From positions 1-26,687 of IMG/VR virus record IMGVR_UViG_3300043395_002028: a stretch of 26,687 nt of DNA. One strand, written 5' to 3'. Positions 6,015-24,487 of this stretch are shown in pieces. The notes beneath the pieces were generated by a model, which was not told where the DNA came from, searched no databases, and was given only the letters and a program-made list of their open reading frames with translations. Within the stretch, counting starts at the first letter, position 1. Every line of letters begins with the position of its first letter. The DNA comes from a virus. Position numbers and translations under genes: made by a program.

Positions 6015-6266
6015 ATGTCTGTAAAAAGATTAGTCCCCTTACATGCAGTAGCATTATCTGCAAATCCACCAGATGCTCGTATTGGTGATATTTATTATAA
6101 TACTGTAGATGATAAGCTTAAGTATTATAATGGCACATCATGGTCAGATGTGGCTGGTGTAATTTCTGGAATATTAGAGCATGTTCATACTTATGATGGA
6201 GCAATATTTTCTGTAGAATCAGTTCAAGTTCCAGCTTCTGGCGTAATTGATGGAGGCACTCCATGA
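6015..6266 (+). CDS. Small fibre-associated protein
   Basis: 83 residues with the same GDIYYNTVDDKLKYYNGTSW motif that marks fibre attachment segments in neighbouring genes, but without a shaft. It could be a stand-alone adaptor or the detached N-terminus of a former longer fibre. It ends in an ATGA overlap with the next fibre gene, and its end carries that gene's GGAGG site, so the pair are co-translated. No enzymatic motif is visible. Confidence 0.65.
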   Translation: MSVKRLVPLHAVALSANPPDARIGDIYYNTVDDKLKYYNGTSWSDVAGVISGILEHVHTYDGAIFSVESVQVPASGVIDGGTP

Positions 6267-8218
6267 CAGTAAAAATACTTATAAAGCGTGGAACTGAAAC
6301 ACAATGGACAAATTCTACAACAGCACTTATGTCTGGAGAACTGGGCCTTGACACAACTAATAATATTCTTAAAGTTGGAAACGGATCAACTCTTTGGAAT
6401 AGTCTTCCTGGAATACAATTAAGTTCTCAACAAGTTTCAGAATTAGCACAGGATGCAGTAGCGCAGGCATTTGCTAATGGAGTTCATTCTAATATAGTTG
6501 TTACATATAATGATAATGGAAATTCAATAAGCCTTGCTACAGGACCAGATGTTGTTACTACAACAAGTTTAAATAATACTTTAACAAATTCTACTACTGG
6601 ATATGTTCCTATATCAGATGTAGGAAGTGTAGATGGCGTTGCCCCGCTTGATTCAAATTCTTTAATTCCAGATGCATATATTCCATCAACAATAACAAGA
6701 GACTCTGAGTTATCTACTCATAATTCCGCAACAACCAATGTTCATGGTATTTCAAATACAGCAGACCTTTTAAATACATCTAATACAAAAACAGTGACAA
6801 ATAAAACAATTGGCGCAGGCGGATTAGCATTTAATAGTGGAGCAAATTCTAGTTCAATATATACAGAAGGCAATGATATGTCTGTATATGCAAATGCTAA
6901 CCTATATTTAAATGGAAATGCAAATATTGTTTTACAGCCAGCGACTGGATCCACAGCAAGTGTTAAGGGTGATGTAATAATTACATCTAACGCATCTCAA
7001 TCTCTTAATAATAAAACATTGGCATCTCCTACTTTTACTGGAATTCCAGTTGCACCAACAGCAGCATCTAATACTAATACAACACAGGTTGCAACAACAG
7101 AGTTTGTTCAGTCTTTAATCAGTAATCTTGTAGATAATGCTCCTAGCGTTTTAAATACATTAAATGAACTTTCTGCTGCAATTGGAAATGATGCAAATTA
7201 TGCAACAACTGTAACTAATGCATTAGCCTTAAAAGCTCCTCTTGCCTCACCAACATTTACAGGAACTGTTTCTGGAATAACTAAAGATATGGTAGGGCTT
7301 GCAAATGTAAATAATACATCAGATGCACTTAAGCCAATATCTTTAGCAACTCAGGCAGCTTTAGATGATAAATTAAATTCAAATGTAGCAGCAGTAACAT
7401 ATGTAACTCAAACATCTGCAGCAAATACATATGCAACAATTATGAATCCAACATTTTCTGGAACCGTTTCTGGAATTACAAAATCTATGGTCGGACTTGA
7501 AAATGTTGATAATACATCTGATGCAAATAAACCTATATCAACTTCAACTCAAGCAGCACTTGATGCTAAACTAAATCTTGTAGAACCTTCTATTGATTAT
7601 TATGTTACAAATTCTGGTTCTGGTGCGTATTTAGTTAATGGTGTATCAAATGGAACAATTTATTTTGAAAAAGGTAAAAAATATAGAATTCATGTAAATG
7701 CTACTGGTCATCCATTCTGGATTCAAACAGTGTCTGGAGCATATAGCGCAGGAAATATTTATAGTACTGGTATTACTAATAATGGAACCCAAAACGGACA
7801 TATTCTAGTTGAGCTTCCTCAAAATGCCCCACAGCTATATTACGTATGCCAATTTCATTCAATGATGGCGGGATCAATAAATACAGCAACTACTCAATAT
7901 GATAATACTTACATACCAATAACGGGTACAACTAGAACAATTTCCTCTTCTACAGATAAGTATAATATCCTTGAGTTTTCATCTGGAAGCCCAATTACAG
8001 TAACTATTCCAAACGATACGCAAGATTCTGGTTGGAGCATAGGGTCTTCTGTGGAAATAAGACAGGTTGGAACTGGACAAATTGTAATTCAAAAAGATGC
8101 GGCAGTTACATATAATGCTCCAGATAATCAATTTAAAACAAGAACTCAATGGAGTTCGTTAATATTAGAAAAACGTGCAGCCAATACTTGGCTTGTCACT
8201 GGTGATTCTACCGCATAA
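6263..8218 (+). CDS. Large modular tail fibre with cupredoxin-like domain
   Basis: 651 residues. The first ~52 residues (MTVKILIKRGTETQW...GELGLDTTNNILKVGNGSTLW) match the Mtd/hyaluronidase-type N-terminal fibre domain. Then come modules shared with the fibre at 10192-11703, two copies of a phage-fibre repeat (GITKDMVGLANVNNTSDALKP and GITKSMVGLENVDNTSDANKP, about 345-425), and a plastocyanin-like domain (about 445-550). That domain has GHPFWI (H483) and YYVCQFHSMMAGSI (C529, H532, M534/M535), the ligand pattern of a type 1 copper site. A beta-rich C-terminal domain (about 560-651) may be the receptor-binding tip. Cupredoxin-like domains of this kind are known in aquatic phage fibres; copper loading is inferred. 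ATA isoleucine codons are frequent, about 20 of 52 by eye. Confidence 0.87.
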   Translation: MTVKILIKRGTETQWTNSTTALMSGELGLDTTNNILKVGNGSTLWNSLPGIQLSSQQVSELAQDAVAQAFANGVHSNIVVTYNDNGNSISLATGPDVVTTTSLNNTLTNSTTGYVPISDVGSVDGVAPLDSNSLIPDAYIPSTITRDSELSTHNSATTNVHGISNTADLLNTSNTKTVTNKTIGAGGLAFNSGANSSSIYTEGNDMSVYANANLYLNGNANIVLQPATGSTASVKGDVIITSNASQSLNNKTLASPTFTGIPVAPTAASNTNTTQVATTEFVQSLISNLVDNAPSVLNTLNELSAAIGNDANYATTVTNALALKAPLASPTFTGTVSGITKDMVGLANVNNTSDALKPISLATQAALDDKLNSNVAAVTYVTQTSAANTYATIMNPTFSGTVSGITKSMVGLENVDNTSDANKPISTSTQAALDAKLNLVEPSIDYYVTNSGSGAYLVNGVSNGTIYFEKGKKYRIHVNATGHPFWIQTVSGAYSAGNIYSTGITNNGTQNGHILVELPQNAPQLYYVCQFHSMMAGSINTATTQYDNTYIPITGTTRTISSSTDKYNILEFSSGSPITVTIPNDTQDSGWSIGSSVEIRQVGTGQIVIQKDAAVTYNAPDNQFKTRTQWSSLILEKRAANTWLVTGDSTA

Positions 8219-8228
8219 GGAGAAATAA

Positions 8229-8465
8229 ATGACAGATCAACCAACCCCAATCCCAACACCAACACCAATTAAGTTGGCTTTTATTTTAGATGGAAGAGTT
8301 CAAGAAATGCTTAATACTGATAGTAGATTAGCTGCAATTTTTTTAAGTGAACCAATTATTGTAGATATTTCTGGCAAACAAATCAAGTTACAGTCCTCTT
8401 ACAATCCAGATAATGGAGAATTTACTGATCCAGTGTTTGATCAGGATGGTAATCTTATAGGATAA
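8229..8465 (+). CDS. Small hypothetical phage protein
   Basis: 78 residues. A Pro/Thr-rich N-terminus (PTPIPTPTPIK) is followed by a compact domain with KLAFILDGRVQEML, LAAIFLSEPIIVDIS and a final acidic SYNPDNGEFTDPVFDQDG. Short proteins with this pattern sit beside fibre genes in aquatic phages, but I know no function. It has a clear AAGGAG site and overlaps the next gene at TAATG. Confidence 0.65.
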   Translation: MTDQPTPIPTPTPIKLAFILDGRVQEMLNTDSRLAAIFLSEPIIVDISGKQIKLQSSYNPDNGEFTDPVFDQDGNLIG

Positions 8466-9910
8466 TGAAAAGATTAAGCAGAAAAAGAATTATAAATACA
8501 CGACTTCGTGCATTTACATCTTTTTCTGATAATTTTTCATCTGCTTCATTAAAAAGTGGATGGAAATCTTTATCTGGATCTTGGACTTCTGGTGGAAATT
8601 TACTGACAGCGTCATCAGTTAATTCTTTAATATCTATTCCATTATCAAAATCAGATTGTACTATAACTGCAACACTTCCTTCAGGTACAGGAATGGGCGT
8701 ATATTTTTGGGGACTAGATGCAAATAATTATTGGGCATCTTATGCAGTTTCTTCTGGAACTACCACTTCAACATGTACAAATAATGCATGTAATGGAACT
8801 GAAAATTATACTGTGACTCAAAACTGTTCATGTTATCAGTCTGGCACAACAACACAATCAACTTGCAATAATGGAGCATGTTCTGGGTCAGAAAATTTTA
8901 CTGATTATAGAAGTTGTTCGTGCAGTGCAGTAAGTGTTTCAAATTGTAATAATGGATCTTGCTCAGGATCAGAAAATTATACCGCTACAAGATCATGCTC
9001 GTGTGGTCCAGGACCATCAAATTGTAATAATGGTTCATGTTCAGGAGCAGAATTGTTTGCAGACTATAGAACTTGTTCATGTTACTATTCTGGTGGAGTT
9101 TGTTCATATACTGCTGGATCTACGACATATACATCTTTAGGCTGCTATTCAGCTTTTTCTGGATGTAATTCTGGAACAGAAACTTCATGTAATGGTCCAG
9201 GTGGATTGAATGTGTGCGGATGTCCTTGCGGACAAAGCAAAGTATGTTGTTATACAGTAACAACTACTAGCGGATATTATAACTGTGCAGTTGGATGTTC
9301 TTATAATGGACAATATAATTCTCAATGTTATTTTAATTCTACCTGTAATAGCGGAGCTTGTTCAGGCGGAGAATGGTTTACAAATAGCAGAAGCTGCTCG
9401 TGTCCCTCAGTTTCAAATTGCAATAACGGATCATGTTCTGGAACAGAAAACTATACTGCAACAAGAAGTTGCTCATGTTCTTCGGTAAATGTTTCAAATT
9501 GTAATAGTGGAGCATGTAATGGCGGAGAATTTTTTACAAATACTCGAAGCTGCTCATGTCCAACAGTTCCAGTATATGCCTCTACATGTAATAATGGTGC
9601 ATGTAGCGGAACATATAGTTTTACAGCAACTAGAAACTGCTCTTGCACAACAACATATAGCAGAAAGCTAAGAACAGTAAAAGTAATTAATGGAGTTCAA
9701 TCGACTGTATCTGAATTTAATATCTCCTCTTTACCAACATCTATTCAAATAGTTACATCTGGCACTTCAGTCTCAGTAAGTGGATCTGGATCTTCTGCAA
9801 ATTATACAAATTCAGACGGGACAACAAATAAGAATTTTGGTATAATCAGAGTAAGCGGCGGATCAGAAGAGATTTCGTCAATTTCAAACTTTACAGCAAC
9901 GGTGGCATAA
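8465..9910 (+). CDS. Cysteine-rich repeat adhesin, repeats apparently inserted in a jelly-roll domain
   Basis: 481 residues with about 45 cysteines. Residues about 18-95 (FSDNFSSASLKSGW..., GTGMGVYFWGLDANNYWASY) look like the first half of a concanavalin-A-like/DUF1080-type jelly-roll. Residues about 398-481 (RKLRTVKVINGVQSTVSEF..., NFGIIRVSGGSEE) look like its second half. Between them lie eight 20-residue repeats, C-x4-C-x11-C-x-C with consensus CNNG[AS]CSG-x-E-x-[FY]T-x-x-RSCSC, starting at C104 and ending at C394. A separate 12-cysteine segment of about 80 residues sits between repeats 4 and 5. No signal peptide is seen, as expected for a virion protein. Disulfides would form after release. 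Probably a surface adhesin; the receptor is unknown and I do not recognise the repeat family. Confidence 0.8.
   Translation: MKRLSRKRIINTRLRAFTSFSDNFSSASLKSGWKSLSGSWTSGGNLLTASSVNSLISIPLSKSDCTITATLPSGTGMGVYFWGLDANNYWASYAVSSGTTTSTCTNNACNGTENYTVTQNCSCYQSGTTTQSTCNNGACSGSENFTDYRSCSCSAVSVSNCNNGSCSGSENYTATRSCSCGPGPSNCNNGSCSGAELFADYRTCSCYYSGGVCSYTAGSTTYTSLGCYSAFSGCNSGTETSCNGPGGLNVCGCPCGQSKVCCYTVTTTSGYYNCAVGCSYNGQYNSQCYFNSTCNSGACSGGEWFTNSRSCSCPSVSNCNNGSCSGTENYTATRSCSCSSVNVSNCNSGACNGGEFFTNTRSCSCPTVPVYASTCNNGACSGTYSFTATRNCSCTTTYSRKLRTVKVINGVQSTVSEFNISSLPTSIQIVTSGTSVSVSGSGSSANYTNSDGTTNKNFGIIRVSGGSEEISSISNFTATVA
8774..9646 (+). repeat. Eight cysteine-rich coding repeats with one interruption
   Basis: Repeat cores of about 60 bases with spacers of variable length. 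The encoded copies tend to alternate between a form with YTATR and one with F-[TA]-[DN]-x-R, suggesting a two-repeat unit. Synonymous codons differ between copies, so the array is not a recent DNA-level expansion. The interruption runs from about 9080 to 9340. Confidence 0.85.
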
Positions 9911-9911
9911 A

Positions 9912-10157
9912 ATGACAGATCCATATAATAGACCAGCCAGACCCTGGGACCTATTTAATAAAAATCTTGGTCGAGTAGAAGACGTAATATCTAAAAAAAG
10001 ACTAGAAATATGTAAAAACTGCGACAGGTTCTTATCCTTGACTACACAATGTTTAGAATGTGGATGTATTATGAATCTAAAAACTAAGCTTCCTAATGCA
10101 GAATGTCCACTTCATAAGTGGGGCCAAGAGCAAGTTCCAATTGATAGAGAGATATAA
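9912..10157 (+). CDS. Small zinc-ribbon-like phage protein
   Basis: 81 residues. RPWDLFNKN near the N-terminus is followed by CKNC (C34, C37), CLECGC (C47, C50, C52) and ECPLHKW (C65), a treble-clef or zinc-ribbon-like arrangement. Small proteins with this RPWDLF...C-x2-C...C-x2-C-G-C...CP-x3-W layout are widespread in aquatic phages without known function. The start lies one base after the stop of the cysteine-repeat gene, so the two are co-translated. A thiol- or metal-related helper role is possible but only suggested by position. Confidence 0.75.
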   Translation: MTDPYNRPARPWDLFNKNLGRVEDVISKKRLEICKNCDRFLSLTTQCLECGCIMNLKTKLPNAECPLHKWGQEQVPIDREI

Positions 10158-10191: not shown

Positions 10192-11703
10192 ATGGCAGTA
10201 AATTTCCCAACTAGTTTGGACAATTTTACCAACCCTTCTTCTAATAGTTCGGTTGCTAATCCTTCACATTCTCAACAGCATGCTGATGCCAATGATGCCA
10301 TAGAGGCCCTTGAAGCCAAGGTAGGTATTACTGGTTCTAGTGTTGTAACTAGCCATGACTATAAAATTTCTCAATTAGAGTCTTTAGTAACATCTGCTGT
10401 AGCAGGCGCAAAATCAATATATCAAGATGTAAGAAATCAAAGTGGGAATTCTTTAGATAAAGCAACCCCTGTATATGTTAGTGGATCTGAGGGGGCATCT
10501 GGAAAGATGCTTATATCTCCATCTTCAAATGCTACAGAATCGATGTCCTCAAAAACAATGGGGCTTACCTCATCTACAATTGCAAATAATACTAATGGTC
10601 AAGTTATTTCTGAAGGAATTCTTGAAGGAATTGATACAACTGGAGCGGCAGACGGAGACCCAGTTTGGCTTGGAGTAAATGGAGCAAAAATATATGGACT
10701 TGCAAATAAGCCAGTAGCTCCAGCACATTTAGTATTTTTAGGTATAGTAATTAGAGGCGGTCACTTAAATACTGGATCTATGTATGTTAAGATCCAAAAC
10801 GGTTTTGAAATAGAAGAACTTCATAATGTATTAATTACTAATAAACAAAATAATCAAGTTTTAAGGTATGACTCTACTTCTGGTTTATGGAAAAATCAAA
10901 CAATTGACAACCTATTTGAACCAGCAGGAGCAATAGCAACACATTCTGCATTAACTACCAATATTCATGGTATTGCAGATACTTCTCTTTTAGCAACAAA
11001 ATCCTATGCAGATACTGCAGTTTCAACTGCAATAACTGCAATTATCAATTCTGCTCCAGCTACATTGGATACTTTAAATGAATTGGCTACAGCATTGGCA
11101 AATGATCCAAATTTTGCAACAACAATATCAAATGCTTTAGCATTAAAAGCTCCACTAGCAAATCCAGCTCTAACTGGAACTCCAACAGCTCCAACAGCTA
11201 GTGCTGGAACAAATACTACTCAAATAGCCACAACTGCCTTTGTAAAGACATCATCTGATAATGCTGTAGCTACTGCAAACCTTTATACGGATTCTGCCGT
11301 AACCTCTTTAGGTAATAGCGCAGCTCTACTTTATGTTCCAATTTCCGATGTAGGTCAACCAGACGGGGTAGCCTCCCTTGACTCCCTTGGAAAAGTACCA
11401 AATACTCAACTAAATATTGATGAAAGAATTCAAGATGTAGCTGCTGGAATGATAACTTCAGCTACTCATAGCAATATAACTGTATCTTATGATGATAATA
11501 ATGGTAGACTTAGTTTTACTGGAATACCTCTTACCCAAGAGCAGGTTCAGGACCATGTGGCTCCATTATTTACACATGCATTTCATACAAATGTAAGTGC
11601 TTCATATGATGATGAAAACAATAGAATTGTTTTAGCTTCATCTGGTGGTGGAGGTTCTGGCGGTGGAGTTGGAACTAATATTGCTTGGTGGCTAGGAGTA
11701 TAA
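10192..11703 (+). CDS. Modular tail fibre
   Basis: 503 residues. The N-terminus (MAVNFPTSLDNFTNPS...HADANDAIEALEAKVG, 1-46) is a typical fibre attachment domain. Residues about 60-240 form a domain with GNSLDKATPVYVSG and an ADGDPVWLGVNG core, seen in other fibres. The rest reuses modules of the fibre at 6263-8218 in a different order: TNIHGI, TLDTLNEL, TPTAPTASAGTNTTQIATTAF, YVPISDVG, and two HSN/HTN-x-x-x-SYDD units. It ends in a Gly/Ser-rich linker and a WWLGV tail. ATA codons are frequent. Likely a second adhesin, co-packaged with or alternative to the first; its exact place is inferred. Confidence 0.82.
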   Translation: MAVNFPTSLDNFTNPSSNSSVANPSHSQQHADANDAIEALEAKVGITGSSVVTSHDYKISQLESLVTSAVAGAKSIYQDVRNQSGNSLDKATPVYVSGSEGASGKMLISPSSNATESMSSKTMGLTSSTIANNTNGQVISEGILEGIDTTGAADGDPVWLGVNGAKIYGLANKPVAPAHLVFLGIVIRGGHLNTGSMYVKIQNGFEIEELHNVLITNKQNNQVLRYDSTSGLWKNQTIDNLFEPAGAIATHSALTTNIHGIADTSLLATKSYADTAVSTAITAIINSAPATLDTLNELATALANDPNFATTISNALALKAPLANPALTGTPTAPTASAGTNTTQIATTAFVKTSSDNAVATANLYTDSAVTSLGNSAALLYVPISDVGQPDGVASLDSLGKVPNTQLNIDERIQDVAAGMITSATHSNITVSYDDNNGRLSFTGIPLTQEQVQDHVAPLFTHAFHTNVSASYDDENNRIVLASSGGGGSGGGVGTNIAWWLGV

Positions 11704-18239: not shown

Positions 18240-18628
18240 TGTACTACGCATTATTTTTAGATGATTTTTTAAATACTAAATCTTTACATGATTATAAAGA
18301 AATTGGTAGGGCTGGAAATTCTGTAATAATTAAATGCAGTTATGAGCCACAATCAGAGTATATAGAATTATCTGAAAATGAGGCCTTGTCTTTTATGTTT
18401 ATTGGTGATCCAGACACTCTTGAAGAAAAAACAGTTAGACCAGATAATCATGTTTATGAAATATTAAAAGATAGGACTTTAAGGCAGGTTCCACAATTAA
18501 ATTTATTAGGAGAGGTTCAAGAAGGAGTAGTTAAATATAAATATAAAATTACTCAAGAGGATAGAGATAATGCAAAAGCATTACAAAATAAAATAATGAA
18601 GTGGATCCCGCTTGTCGAACAAAATTGA
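18239..18628 (+). CDS. Hypothetical protein in the accessory cassette
   Basis: 129 residues, mixed alpha/beta, with no clear motif. The N-terminal half (MYYALFLDDF..., IIKCSYEPQSEYIELSENE) is strand-rich. The end is a basic helix (DRDNAKALQNKIMKWI). The start overlaps the upstream stop (TAATG), and its 3' end overlaps the next gene by 17 bases. Function unknown. Confidence 0.65.
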   Translation: MYYALFLDDFLNTKSLHDYKEIGRAGNSVIIKCSYEPQSEYIELSENEALSFMFIGDPDTLEEKTVRPDNHVYEILKDRTLRQVPQLNLLGEVQEGVVKYKYKITQEDRDNAKALQNKIMKWIPLVEQN

Positions 18629-19319
18629 ATTTATATTAAATGATGAAACGCTACCAGATATTTATAAATCTCCTCAGCCAGCTAAATCATTAATACCAAA
18701 CTGGTATAAAATTGCACCAGCAAATATAAATAGAGAAGAATTTAAACTTTTGCCTAATGGTAAGCGTAATGGTACATTTAAAAAGTGTGTTCCATTTATG
18801 GATGCAATGACATCTGGATATATAGTATCTTTGCCATGTGATGTTTTAGTTGTAAAAGACGAAAAGGGAAATCAAGGATTTCAATGGACTGTTGATGGTC
18901 ATATTGTTTCTACACATAGTAAAGATGAGCATCCTGGATTTCCAATTCCAGATGATTATTCTAAAACAGTATTTACTTGGATTGGACACTATATAGTAAA
19001 AACTCCTAAAGGAACTAGCTCATTATTTACTCATCCCATAAATAGAAAAGACCTTCCATTCTCAGTAATTACTGGTGTAGTAGACACCGACTCGTATCTT
19101 GCACCAGTCGATTCTCCATTTTTAATTAAAAAAGATTTTACTGGTATTATTGAAAAAGGAACTCCAGTATGTCAAATAATTCCATTTAAAAGAGAAAACT
19201 GGATTTCTGCAACTGTAAAGATTTCTAAAAAAGAATTAAATAATTGGATGAATGGATACATGAGCAAACTTTTATCCGCATATAAAAATAGCGTATGGTC
19301 TAAAAAGGAATATATTTAA
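18612..19319 (+). CDS. DUF6065-like protein, copy 1
   Basis: 235 residues. The TTG start at 18612 is chosen because it gives a beginning (SNKIEFILND) that aligns with MKKIEFIPNS of the paralog at 22017. Shared landmarks: P-x-P-[AS]-K-x-[LF]IP-[NQ]WYK (about 22-33), KKCVPFMDAMTSGYI (about 57-71), KTPKG-x-S, THPINRKDLPF (about 141-151), GVVDTDSY and GTPVCQIIPFKRE-x-W (about 185-198). This is the pattern of a phage and marine-bacterial family without known function (DUF6065, from memory). Histidines and acidic residues in the conserved segments allow an enzyme or metal site, but none is established. It is coupled to both neighbours by overlaps. Confidence 0.75.
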   Translation: MSNKIEFILNDETLPDIYKSPQPAKSLIPNWYKIAPANINREEFKLLPNGKRNGTFKKCVPFMDAMTSGYIVSLPCDVLVVKDEKGNQGFQWTVDGHIVSTHSKDEHPGFPIPDDYSKTVFTWIGHYIVKTPKGTSSLFTHPINRKDLPFSVITGVVDTDSYLAPVDSPFLIKKDFTGIIEKGTPVCQIIPFKRENWISATVKISKKELNNWMNGYMSKLLSAYKNSVWSKKEYI

Positions 19320-22016: not shown

Positions 22017-22712
22017 ATGAAGAAAATAGAATTTATCCCTAACTCGGATCATACGGCTAAAGCATTAAATCCGCCTGCTCCGAGTAAGGGATTTATTCCA
22101 CAATGGTATAAAGACTCTACAAACTATATGAATGGCAACAGCCTTGACTATGTAGATAATGTTGATCATTTAAAAAATTATAAATTATGTATACCATTTT
22201 TAGATTCAATGATGGCTGGCTATATGATTGAATTACCTTATGATGTTTATATAAAAATTATTGGGGATAAAATTCATTTCAATTGGCCTAACGAAGAAAA
22301 ATTAATTATTCCAAGAAGGAATTTGAAGGGGATGCCAAGACCTGCTGGATGCTTAGAGCAAGCGTATGCTTGGACATTTTTCTGGGGGGTAAAAACACCA
22401 CCAGGATATAGTGTATTAGTTACACACCCTTTTAATAGACACGATCTTCCTTTTATAACTACATCTGGAATCATGGACTCAGATGGTTTTAGTCAAGGAG
22501 GAGAAATTCCATTTTTCTTAAAAGAAGATGTGGATGGATTAATTCCAGCAGGTACTCCTATCGCACAAATCTTTCCTTTTAAAAGAGAAGACTGGAAGTC
22601 TGAAAAAAGAGAGTATGATGATAGTTTCAATAAAAAACAAAAGTATCAAATAGAAAGACACCTAACAGGAGCCTATAAGAAGCTTTGGTGGGTCAGAAAA
22701 AAATTTGAGTAA
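22017..22712 (+). CDS. DUF6065-like protein, copy 2
   Basis: 231 residues, paralogous along its full length to the protein at 18612-19319: KGFIPQWYK (about 24-32), YKLCIPFLDSMMAGYMIELP (about 55-74), KTPPGYSVLVTHPFNRHDLPF (split here from copy 1 by its G-Y), GIMDSDGF and GTPIAQIFPFKREDW. Copy 2 has an ARPAGC-like segment (PRPAGCLEQ) and a WTFFWG motif where copy 1 has FTWIGHY. The start is one base after the transporter stop, so translation is coupled. The two copies flank the methyltransferase fusion and the transporter, suggesting all serve one function, perhaps as different-substrate paralogs or heterodimer partners. The function is unknown. Confidence 0.75.
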   Translation: MKKIEFIPNSDHTAKALNPPAPSKGFIPQWYKDSTNYMNGNSLDYVDNVDHLKNYKLCIPFLDSMMAGYMIELPYDVYIKIIGDKIHFNWPNEEKLIIPRRNLKGMPRPAGCLEQAYAWTFFWGVKTPPGYSVLVTHPFNRHDLPFITTSGIMDSDGFSQGGEIPFFLKEDVDGLIPAGTPIAQIFPFKREDWKSEKREYDDSFNKKQKYQIERHLTGAYKKLWWVRKKFE

Positions 22713-22741: not shown

Positions 22742-24487
22742 ATGTCCTATCAGTTAAAAGTAATCAAAGACTATCCAATTGGCTTTTGGCCTCTCGATGA
22801 GTCTTCTGGTTCTACCGCCGCCGACATTTCTGGCTGTGGCAATAATGGAACATATGTTGGATCTCCTGCAGCAAATATTCTTCCATTAGTTTCTGGCGGA
22901 CAATCTGGAACTAAAATTACCAACACAGCATACGTTACTTTGCCAGTAACAAAAGATTATTATGGTGCAACAGTTGGGGCGGGATTCGGAACAAAATACA
23001 CATCAGATAATGACTTTACTCTAGAAGTATGGATTAATCAATCTATAGAGTCTTCTAATGAGACCCCGCTTCTTGCTGATGCAACAAATAATATAGGCTT
23101 ATTTTGGGATAATGGAGATATAGTATTTAAGGTATCTGCAACAGAATCAATTCGCCGTCGTATTCTATATAGCAAAAAATCAATGCATTTAGTTGCAGTA
23201 TATTCTGTGGGATCAATTACTTTATATATTGATTCTGCTCCAGTTGCTTCAAAATCCCTATCTAATTTTAAATTTACAAATACTACTATTAATCTACAAT
23301 CTGGACCAACATCGGTATCTGGAGATACATTTATAGTAGATGCTCCAGCAGTATACCGATATGGTCTTAACGAGACATCAATTCGCAGGCATTATGTAGA
23401 TGGTAATATTACAACCCCTGCTATTCATGTCGTATATCCAGATAAAGGAATTTTATTTAGCGGGACAGATGCAAATATTAAAGCACAATTTGATTATTCA
23501 TATCCAGTAAATAAACCATGGTCGGACTTTGTAGACTCCAATACATATTATGATACTGCTAAGAAATATATTACATTCTATGAAACAGATACTACGCAAT
23601 CCAAATCTTTTGTTATAAATGATTTTCTTGCCGTCCCACAAACAATTGGATTAATTACATCTAAGGTTGAATGGCGGAATGATTTAGGAATAACAGTAGA
23701 ATCAAGTATAGACGGAACTACATATGTAGCATGTACTAATGGACAGCCAATTCCTCAATATTCAAAGGGTTCATTTAATACTACAGGTAAATTATATATT
23801 AGAATTACTATGTCTACTACAGATGCCAGTAAATTCTTGCCAAGACTTTCATTTTTCTGTATAACATTCTATTCTGATACAACGGTATATGCAGATAATT
23901 ATGGAGATAAAATTACATCTAATTCTGATTACTATTTGGGATCATTAAATTATCCTGTTTTATCCCGTCATTATATGAATGGAATTCGGGCTAAGAATGG
24001 AGCAGGATTTGATATGGCTACAGCGATGTCTGTGAAGTCTGTAGAAATGCTCTTTACGCCCCTCACGTTGGCCGCTAACACCCTTATCTACTCATCTGGC
24101 GGTACAACTACCAGATTTGCCTGGAATGGCTCTGGAGCAATTTCTAAGGCCAATATTGCCAAGGTATATATAAATAACGTAGACATTTCGACGGCTACAA
24201 ATATATCTAGTTATTTAGTAGAAGAAGAGCCTCATTATATTGTTTTAGTATTTACTACCCCAATTACTGGTAATATTCAGTTTAATTATGAGTCTACTGG
24301 AGGTCCAAGCAATTTATATAATAACATTGCAATATATCCTTCTGAATTGACGGTGGGCAAAGTAGAGACTCATTATGAGTTGTATACGGGTAAACCAGTA
24401 GAATCAATTACAGAATCTGCCATCACCCTGACAGAATTACAGCCAGCATATTATAATAATGACTGGATTGTGTTACAAAGCATATAA
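22742..24487 (+). CDS. LamG-domain minor tail protein
   Basis: 581 residues. Residues about 10-220 form a LamG/concanavalin-A-like lectin domain: YPIGFWPLDESSGSTAADIS (11-30), NNGTYVG, FTLEVWINQ and VAVYSVGSITLYIDSAPVAS, the classic signature of this domain in phage minor tail proteins. The middle (about 225-390) is beta-rich with a KPWSDFVDSNTYYD segment. The C-terminal third (about 395-581) looks like a second jelly-roll (SVKSVEMLFTPL, RFAWNGSG, HYIVLVF). Likely a glycan-binding structural component. It separates the accessory cassette from the head genes and appears to start its own leaderless transcript. Confidence 0.85.
   Translation: MSYQLKVIKDYPIGFWPLDESSGSTAADISGCGNNGTYVGSPAANILPLVSGGQSGTKITNTAYVTLPVTKDYYGATVGAGFGTKYTSDNDFTLEVWINQSIESSNETPLLADATNNIGLFWDNGDIVFKVSATESIRRRILYSKKSMHLVAVYSVGSITLYIDSAPVASKSLSNFKFTNTTINLQSGPTSVSGDTFIVDAPAVYRYGLNETSIRRHYVDGNITTPAIHVVYPDKGILFSGTDANIKAQFDYSYPVNKPWSDFVDSNTYYDTAKKYITFYETDTTQSKSFVINDFLAVPQTIGLITSKVEWRNDLGITVESSIDGTTYVACTNGQPIPQYSKGSFNTTGKLYIRITMSTTDASKFLPRLSFFCITFYSDTTVYADNYGDKITSNSDYYLGSLNYPVLSRHYMNGIRAKNGAGFDMATAMSVKSVEMLFTPLTLAANTLIYSSGGTTTRFAWNGSGAISKANIAKVYINNVDISTATNISSYLVEEEPHYIVLVFTTPITGNIQFNYESTGGPSNLYNNIAIYPSELTVGKVETHYELYTGKPVESITESAITLTELQPAYYNNDWIVLQSI

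Follow-up and report, generated by a model that had tools for sequence, protein, structure and literature searches.

A predicted jelly-roll tail protein of environmental phages whose cysteine-rich insert resembles a knob-tipped hairpin

On a contig that derives from an uncultured, probably aquatic tailed phage, an open reading frame (ORF) at positions 8465-9910 (+ strand) encodes a protein of 481 residues with 45 cysteines, all of which except C65, in the jelly-roll, fall within residues 104-394. The window analysed here is the whole stretch of 26,687 nucleotides (IMG/VR record IMGVR_UViG_3300043395_002028, positions 1 to 26,687). The initial annotation had described eight strict repeats with a 12-cysteine interruption, looped out as a disulfide-rich projection or stalk from the two halves of one DUF1080/LamG-like jelly-roll, and had considered this an unusual design. 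The description of the array itself stands: the pattern C-x4-C-x11-C-x-C matches exactly eight times in the ORF, starting at residues 104, 134, 161, 187, 294, 319, 346 and 375, against a maximum of three units in 10,000 shuffles of the insert, and 12 cysteines separate C206 from C294, between units 4 and 5. The units are kept at the protein level and not as tandem DNA, with no tandem repeat found by TRF in the DNA of the array and DNA copies of the 20-residue units about 60-78% identical. The initial annotation had not recognised the repeat as a named family, and a profile of the 20-residue unit matches nothing in the PDB at E≤10, and by sequence the unit does not belong with EGF-like, knottin, metallothionein or other named cysteine repeats.

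One interrupted domain and its family

The insert (residues 104-394; 8774-9646) is preceded by an N-terminal half at residues 9-103 (8489-8773), which ends in the FWGLDANNYWASY strand, and followed by a C-terminal half at residues 395-481 (9647-9907). Against hold-out profiles, built from 63 family representatives after exclusion of the window together with its two close relatives, the N-terminal flank scores 59.0 bits and the C-terminal flank 40.7 bits (highest scores among 6,000 shuffled flanks, 15.3 and 13.5), such that both halves match the family (FWxxDxxN[YW]WA ... LLKxxxGTVS). AlphaFold2 (AF2), provided with an alignment of 68 rows, predicts a single β-domain made up of residues ~20-102 and ~390-480, with a pLDDT of about 91-98 (~97 over residues 21-100 and 91-97 over the C-terminal half); from the window protein sequence without an alignment the pLDDT is 34. 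Natural insert-free relatives exist in addition: in L135 the NWWA strand passes directly into LKLLKSANG, joining the halves without an insert, and only a few residues lie between the halves in L141 and L182. On the basis of the hold-out profiles, the structure prediction and these insert-free relatives, the flanks are two halves of a single interrupted domain, as the initial annotation had proposed, and the alternative outcome of two independent domains was not seen in the full-chain model.

The predicted fold is all-β, with both halves packed together, and a Foldseek search of the model against the PDB ranked galectins and further lectin-like jelly-rolls among its first hits, none of them significant (best E 0.15). 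The proposed membership of DUF1080/LamG did not hold by sequence, since the window protein matches nothing in Pfam at E≤10, let alone LamG, Laminin_G_3 or DUF1080 above their gathering scores, and profile comparison with the window's own Laminin_G_3 protein gave a probability of 0.1%. The latter is a separate protein (22742-24484) with a true Laminin_G_3 domain (PF13385) and no detectable similarity to the jelly-roll ORF. Sequence searches of NCBIfam, PHROGs and the PDB with the window protein returned nothing significant, and three relatives yielded one sub-threshold Pfam match only, to an unrelated family. As judged by sequence, then, the jelly-roll is an environmental-phage protein family not represented in Pfam, NCBIfam, PHROGs or the PDB.

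A DNA pattern for the pre-insert strand, FWxxDxxN[YW]WA, matched at least 120 loci in IMG/VR, and among the matches listed nearly all are real ORFs with the N-terminal half, a cysteine-rich stretch and the conserved second half (...LLKSVxGTVS...GI); near-duplicate removal from these left the 63 representatives. In most members a cysteine-rich insert occupies the same loop, with lengths across the family from 0 to ~340 residues, and the design thus turns out to be common among environmental phages rather than unusual. The window ORF belongs to a subfamily of three, together with its syntenic homologues L001:4001-5578 (60% identity in the best segment) and L129:1510-2853, and two-unit and YGTC patterns recovered no further members of it. 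A cysteine-only DNA pattern was discarded, as among the matches listed from its at least 120 loci nearly all were out-of-frame low complexity. No relatives were found by tblastn in INPHARED with six queries, nor in the genome contigs searched. In BFVD, Foldseek retrieved six uncharacterised proteins of 'uncultured Caudovirales phage' (A0A6J7WRS3, A0A6J7WYT9, A0A6J5KM36, A0A6J5REI5, A0A6J5RDN1 and A0A6J5MLT4) with E-values of 1e-13 to 5e-10 over about 490-570 columns; they are named as uncharacterised only and, likened to the window ORF by predicted fold, very likely belong to the same family. A literature search found no description of these jelly-roll/cysteine-insert proteins. In L141:2361-4352 and L182:873-2795 (- strand), the insert-free jelly-roll is followed, in the same chain and after a long polyproline stretch, by a separate cysteine-rich part, as if the cysteine-rich display had been relocated to the C-terminus.

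Gene context and evolution of the insert

Upstream of the ORF lies a tail-fibre gene (6263-8218, + strand; PHROG tail fibre) with an Mtd_N domain (PF18454, 5e-11), the N-terminal domain of the major tropism determinant, and downstream a second one (10192-11703, + strand; PHROG tail fibre, 7e-30); a portal protein is encoded on the same contig, and gene order around the ORF is the same in L001. Among 278 related pairs, the insert has diverged more than either flank in 248 (mean identities of 59% for the insert and 78 and 72% for the flanks), and in pairs such as L132 and L207 the inserts are down to 58% identical between flanks that are 98-100% identical. Fast-evolving exposed tips in phage tail modules usually set host range. 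Gene context and rapid insert evolution together thus point to a putative role of the protein in receptor binding.

The same rapid evolution, and the spread of insert lengths from 0 to ~340 residues, would also be expected if the insert were a disulfide-rich spacer or stabilised the virion and did not itself bind, drifting because only its cysteine framework is constrained, and conservation of the central knob between the window and L001 (see below) does not alone require binding. We consider this explanation unlikely given the position of the locus among tail-fibre genes, where fast-changing exposed tips are generally those that determine host range.

Immediately downstream, a small CxxC protein (9912-10157, + strand) matches DUF6171 (PF19668, 28.8 bits). 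An ORF with a DUF6171-like CxxC motif occurs within 1.5 kb of 48 of the 63 family members and in 4 of 119 background loci, a comparison not strictly matched in that the background also needed a KW motif and used whole loci. A dedicated disulfide factor was considered and rejected as not specific: in cultured phages DUF6171 also adjoins other tail-tip and fibre genes, most of them not cysteine-rich, and is found elsewhere too, suggesting an adhesin-associated rather than a disulfide-specific protein, and we regard the former as possible for the window neighbour. In the cultured Synechococcus cyanophage S-SRM01 (L293:3838-4926), DUF6171 adjoins an annotated gp37-gp38 adhesin tip with a cysteine-rich stretch within glycine-rich sequence.

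Another recurrent neighbour is a small protein (...IDGEVVEVL...RLAAILLS.P.IVDI...) encoded before or after the jelly-roll gene in the window (8229-8465, + strand; 78 residues, ...RLAAIFLSEPIIVDI...), in L001 (3777-4001), and in L152, L138, L170 and L192; the window copy has no match in Pfam or PHROG. Elsewhere in the window, an ORF with a methyltransferase domain and a DUF401-like ORF lie between two paralogous PHROG 7084 ORFs (18612-19319, also DUF6065, and 22017-22712).

Geometry of the insert and pairing of its cysteines

The insert reads as two groups of four units (termed A) around a central region. Units 1 to 4 span C104-C123 (8774-8833), C134-C153 (8864-8923), C161-C180 (8945-9004) and C187-C206 (9023-9082), and units 5 to 8 span C294-C313 (9344-9403), C319-C338 (9419-9478), C346-C365 (9500-9559) and C375-C394 (9587-9646), the latter four being the proposed partners, in mirror register, of units 4, 3, 2 and 1, respectively. 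The central region (residues 207-293; 9083-9343), which holds the 12 interrupting cysteines, features one strand of a second type (B) on each side (C213 and C278), an additional pair C274/C288, and a knob whose core SLGCYSAFSGC...CGCPCG..KVCC (residues 227-262; 9143-9250; 8 cysteines) is better conserved than the rest of the insert when the window and L001 are compared. L001 and L129 keep the knob and have lost C242 and C255 as a pair.

Two arrangements of such an array can be envisaged: an antiparallel hairpin in which the two groups of units face each other as arms, and a linear chain of independent beads, each unit forming its own closed module (C1-C20, C6-C18), comparable to a miniature EGF or knottin domain, to give a flexible tether or multivalent surface with unpaired halves. 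Four cysteines and an identical 4-11-1 spacing of A units in both halves would suit the beads and leave room for within-unit disulfides in either arrangement; the even parity of cysteine numbers described below fits beads as well, and AF2 leaves the middle of the insert without a confident model. Several symmetries, however, argue for the hairpin. In the window, L001 and L129, units follow the order A, B, knob, B, A, with equal manual counts of A units (4/4, 3/3 and 2/2, respectively) and B units (1/1, 5/5 and 4/4) in the ascending and descending arms, equality that rests on these three homologues. Linkers between A units measure 10-7-6 residues in one arm of the window insert and 9-7-5 opposite, and across the window (10/9, 7/7, 6/5), L001 (6/5, 6/5) and L129 (10/9) the lengths of opposite linkers correlate with r=0.98 (permutation p=0.017), with a mismatch of 5 when mirrored versus 11 when colinear. 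When unit n is matched in nested fashion with unit 9-n, the sum of paired positions i+j stays nearly constant (498-503) along the stalk. Furthermore, where cysteines disappear jointly between close relatives, their positions mirror each other across the centre of the insert (0.139 versus 0.274 expected, p=0.002; 14 events, some not independent). Relative to L158, L208 carries one deletion per arm, of 22 and 18 residues, each with the loss of five cysteines, and L192 has one additional cysteine per arm relative to L147. Cysteine gap vectors favour a mirror over a colinear arrangement in 35 inserts, and the reverse holds in 9.

The structural model is consistent with these observations at the base of the insert, where AF2 predicts strands 88-102 and 394-408, followed by one strand in the first unit (residues 112-120, pLDDT 72-81) and one in the last (383-391), and the latter two would pair. 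With pLDDT below 50 for nearly all of residues 131-377, the hairpin past the first unit pair is without a confident model, and a stalk and knob are thus represented by mirror symmetry in the sequence and by the first ribbon segments in the prediction. A k-mer nesting test is suggestive only (13 proteins nested and 5 crossing, with pair totals of 86 to 79), a position-mirror test across inserts was not significant overall, and colinear spacing fits the L208 group better than a mirror. Two-cysteine differences between relatives fall one per arm no more commonly than under random allocation, and are not counted here as evidence for a hairpin. Overall, the projection of the initial annotation is supported with its shape corrected, since an antiparallel, knob-bearing hairpin describes the array better than a string of beads does: unit counts, linkers and mirrored cysteines, together with paired block deletions that remove equal numbers of cysteines and a single predicted strand in each of the two units modelled by AF2, make independent beads improbable.

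All 58 representatives with cysteines in the insert have an even number of them (range 4-50; 44 in the window) when the counted region stops 6-10 residues into the second half, a figure that becomes 57 of 58 when it ends 14-20 residues in and 49 of 58 at 0, a boundary that splits the terminal CxC. Even numbers are likewise found in 29 of 29 flank clusters, and related pairs differ by an even number in 273 of 278 cases (pairs not independent), while further ORFs in these loci that contain at least 4 cysteines divide into 24 even and 17 odd. As 31 of the insert counts equal 0 mod 4 and 27 equal 2 mod 4, Zn(Cys)4 sites do not explain them, and these even but not multiple-of-four counts favour disulfides over zinc. 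Metal binding by zinc fingers or a metallothionein-like sponge, assembled metal-bound in the reducing cytoplasm where tailed phages form and in keeping with CxC motifs and the adjoining zinc-ribbon-like CxxC DUF6171 gene, is very improbable in light of this split, the widely varying cysteine spacing, and the covariation of cysteines in pairs rather than tetrads. Given assembly of tailed phages in a reducing cytoplasm, disulfides in the insert would have to form late or with help, presumably by oxidation after lysis.

Proposed mechanism and known systems compared

Taken together, these data support as the likely reading a small receptor-binding tail protein, or adhesin, that presents a hypervariable disulfide stalk-and-knob on a jelly-roll. 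A conserved concanavalin/galectin-like jelly-roll would serve as the scaffold and anchor to the tail, and the 291-residue insert would exit at one inter-strand loop, climb as a β-ribbon, form a disulfide-rich knob at the tip and return alongside. Each arm would consist of four of the eight 20-residue units, unit n facing unit 9-n, with nested bonds C1-C20', C6-C18', C18-C6' and C20-C1' in each unit pair; such cross-arm disulfides, possibly with some within arms, would make the ribbon a stiff stalk that resists proteases. The knob, or the surface of the stalk, would then contact the host receptor, and stalk length would shift by paired gain or loss of units, one per arm.

We know of no concanavalin A- or galectin-like member with a cysteine-laddered insert. 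These lectins, including CBM2 of the phage J-1 Dit protein (5ly8), are among the best-ranked structural neighbours of the model. They differ from the family in that no E-value falls below 0.15 and Pfam LamG families are not matched by sequence. T-even gp38-type adhesins are glycine-rich and lack the jelly-roll and the proposed disulfide hairpin of the ORF. As tip adhesins in which variable segments set host range (phage PP01 gp38, PMC12892980), they would resemble it.

The closest architectural parallel is the ultralong CDR-H3 of bovine antibodies, in which a β-sandwich extends one loop as a β-ribbon stalk ending in a variable disulfide-rich knob (PMC8602281, PMC6440498), the stalk holding the knob and the knob disulfides being needed for antigen binding (PMC8602281). 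Fold and origin are unrelated, and no homology is claimed. In the phage ORF the stalk itself would be cysteine-laddered and vary in length by paired repeat units, the phage inserts reach ~340 residues and 50 cysteines whereas bovine CDR-H3 exceeds 50 residues with a few disulfides, and diversity is evolutionary in the putatively binding phage family and somatic in the antibodies. A broader proposal, plausible but held more tentatively, is that the family constitutes a widespread unnamed class of receptor-binding proteins, modular and evolvable in a manner akin to bovine ultralong antibodies, in which a fixed jelly-roll carries hypervariable disulfide-laddered hairpins of 4-50 cysteines that grow and shrink by paired changes in their arms.

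If right, this reading would put a name to a common, unannotated class of phage tail proteins, and would explain their erratic-looking cysteine stretches by paired cysteines and mirrored arms rather than by sequence. It also raises the question of the route by which disulfide-rich virion parts of tailed phages are oxidised. Finally, it would provide a natural scaffold for the display of long disulfide hairpins, and would make host recognition by uncultured environmental phages more accessible to testing.
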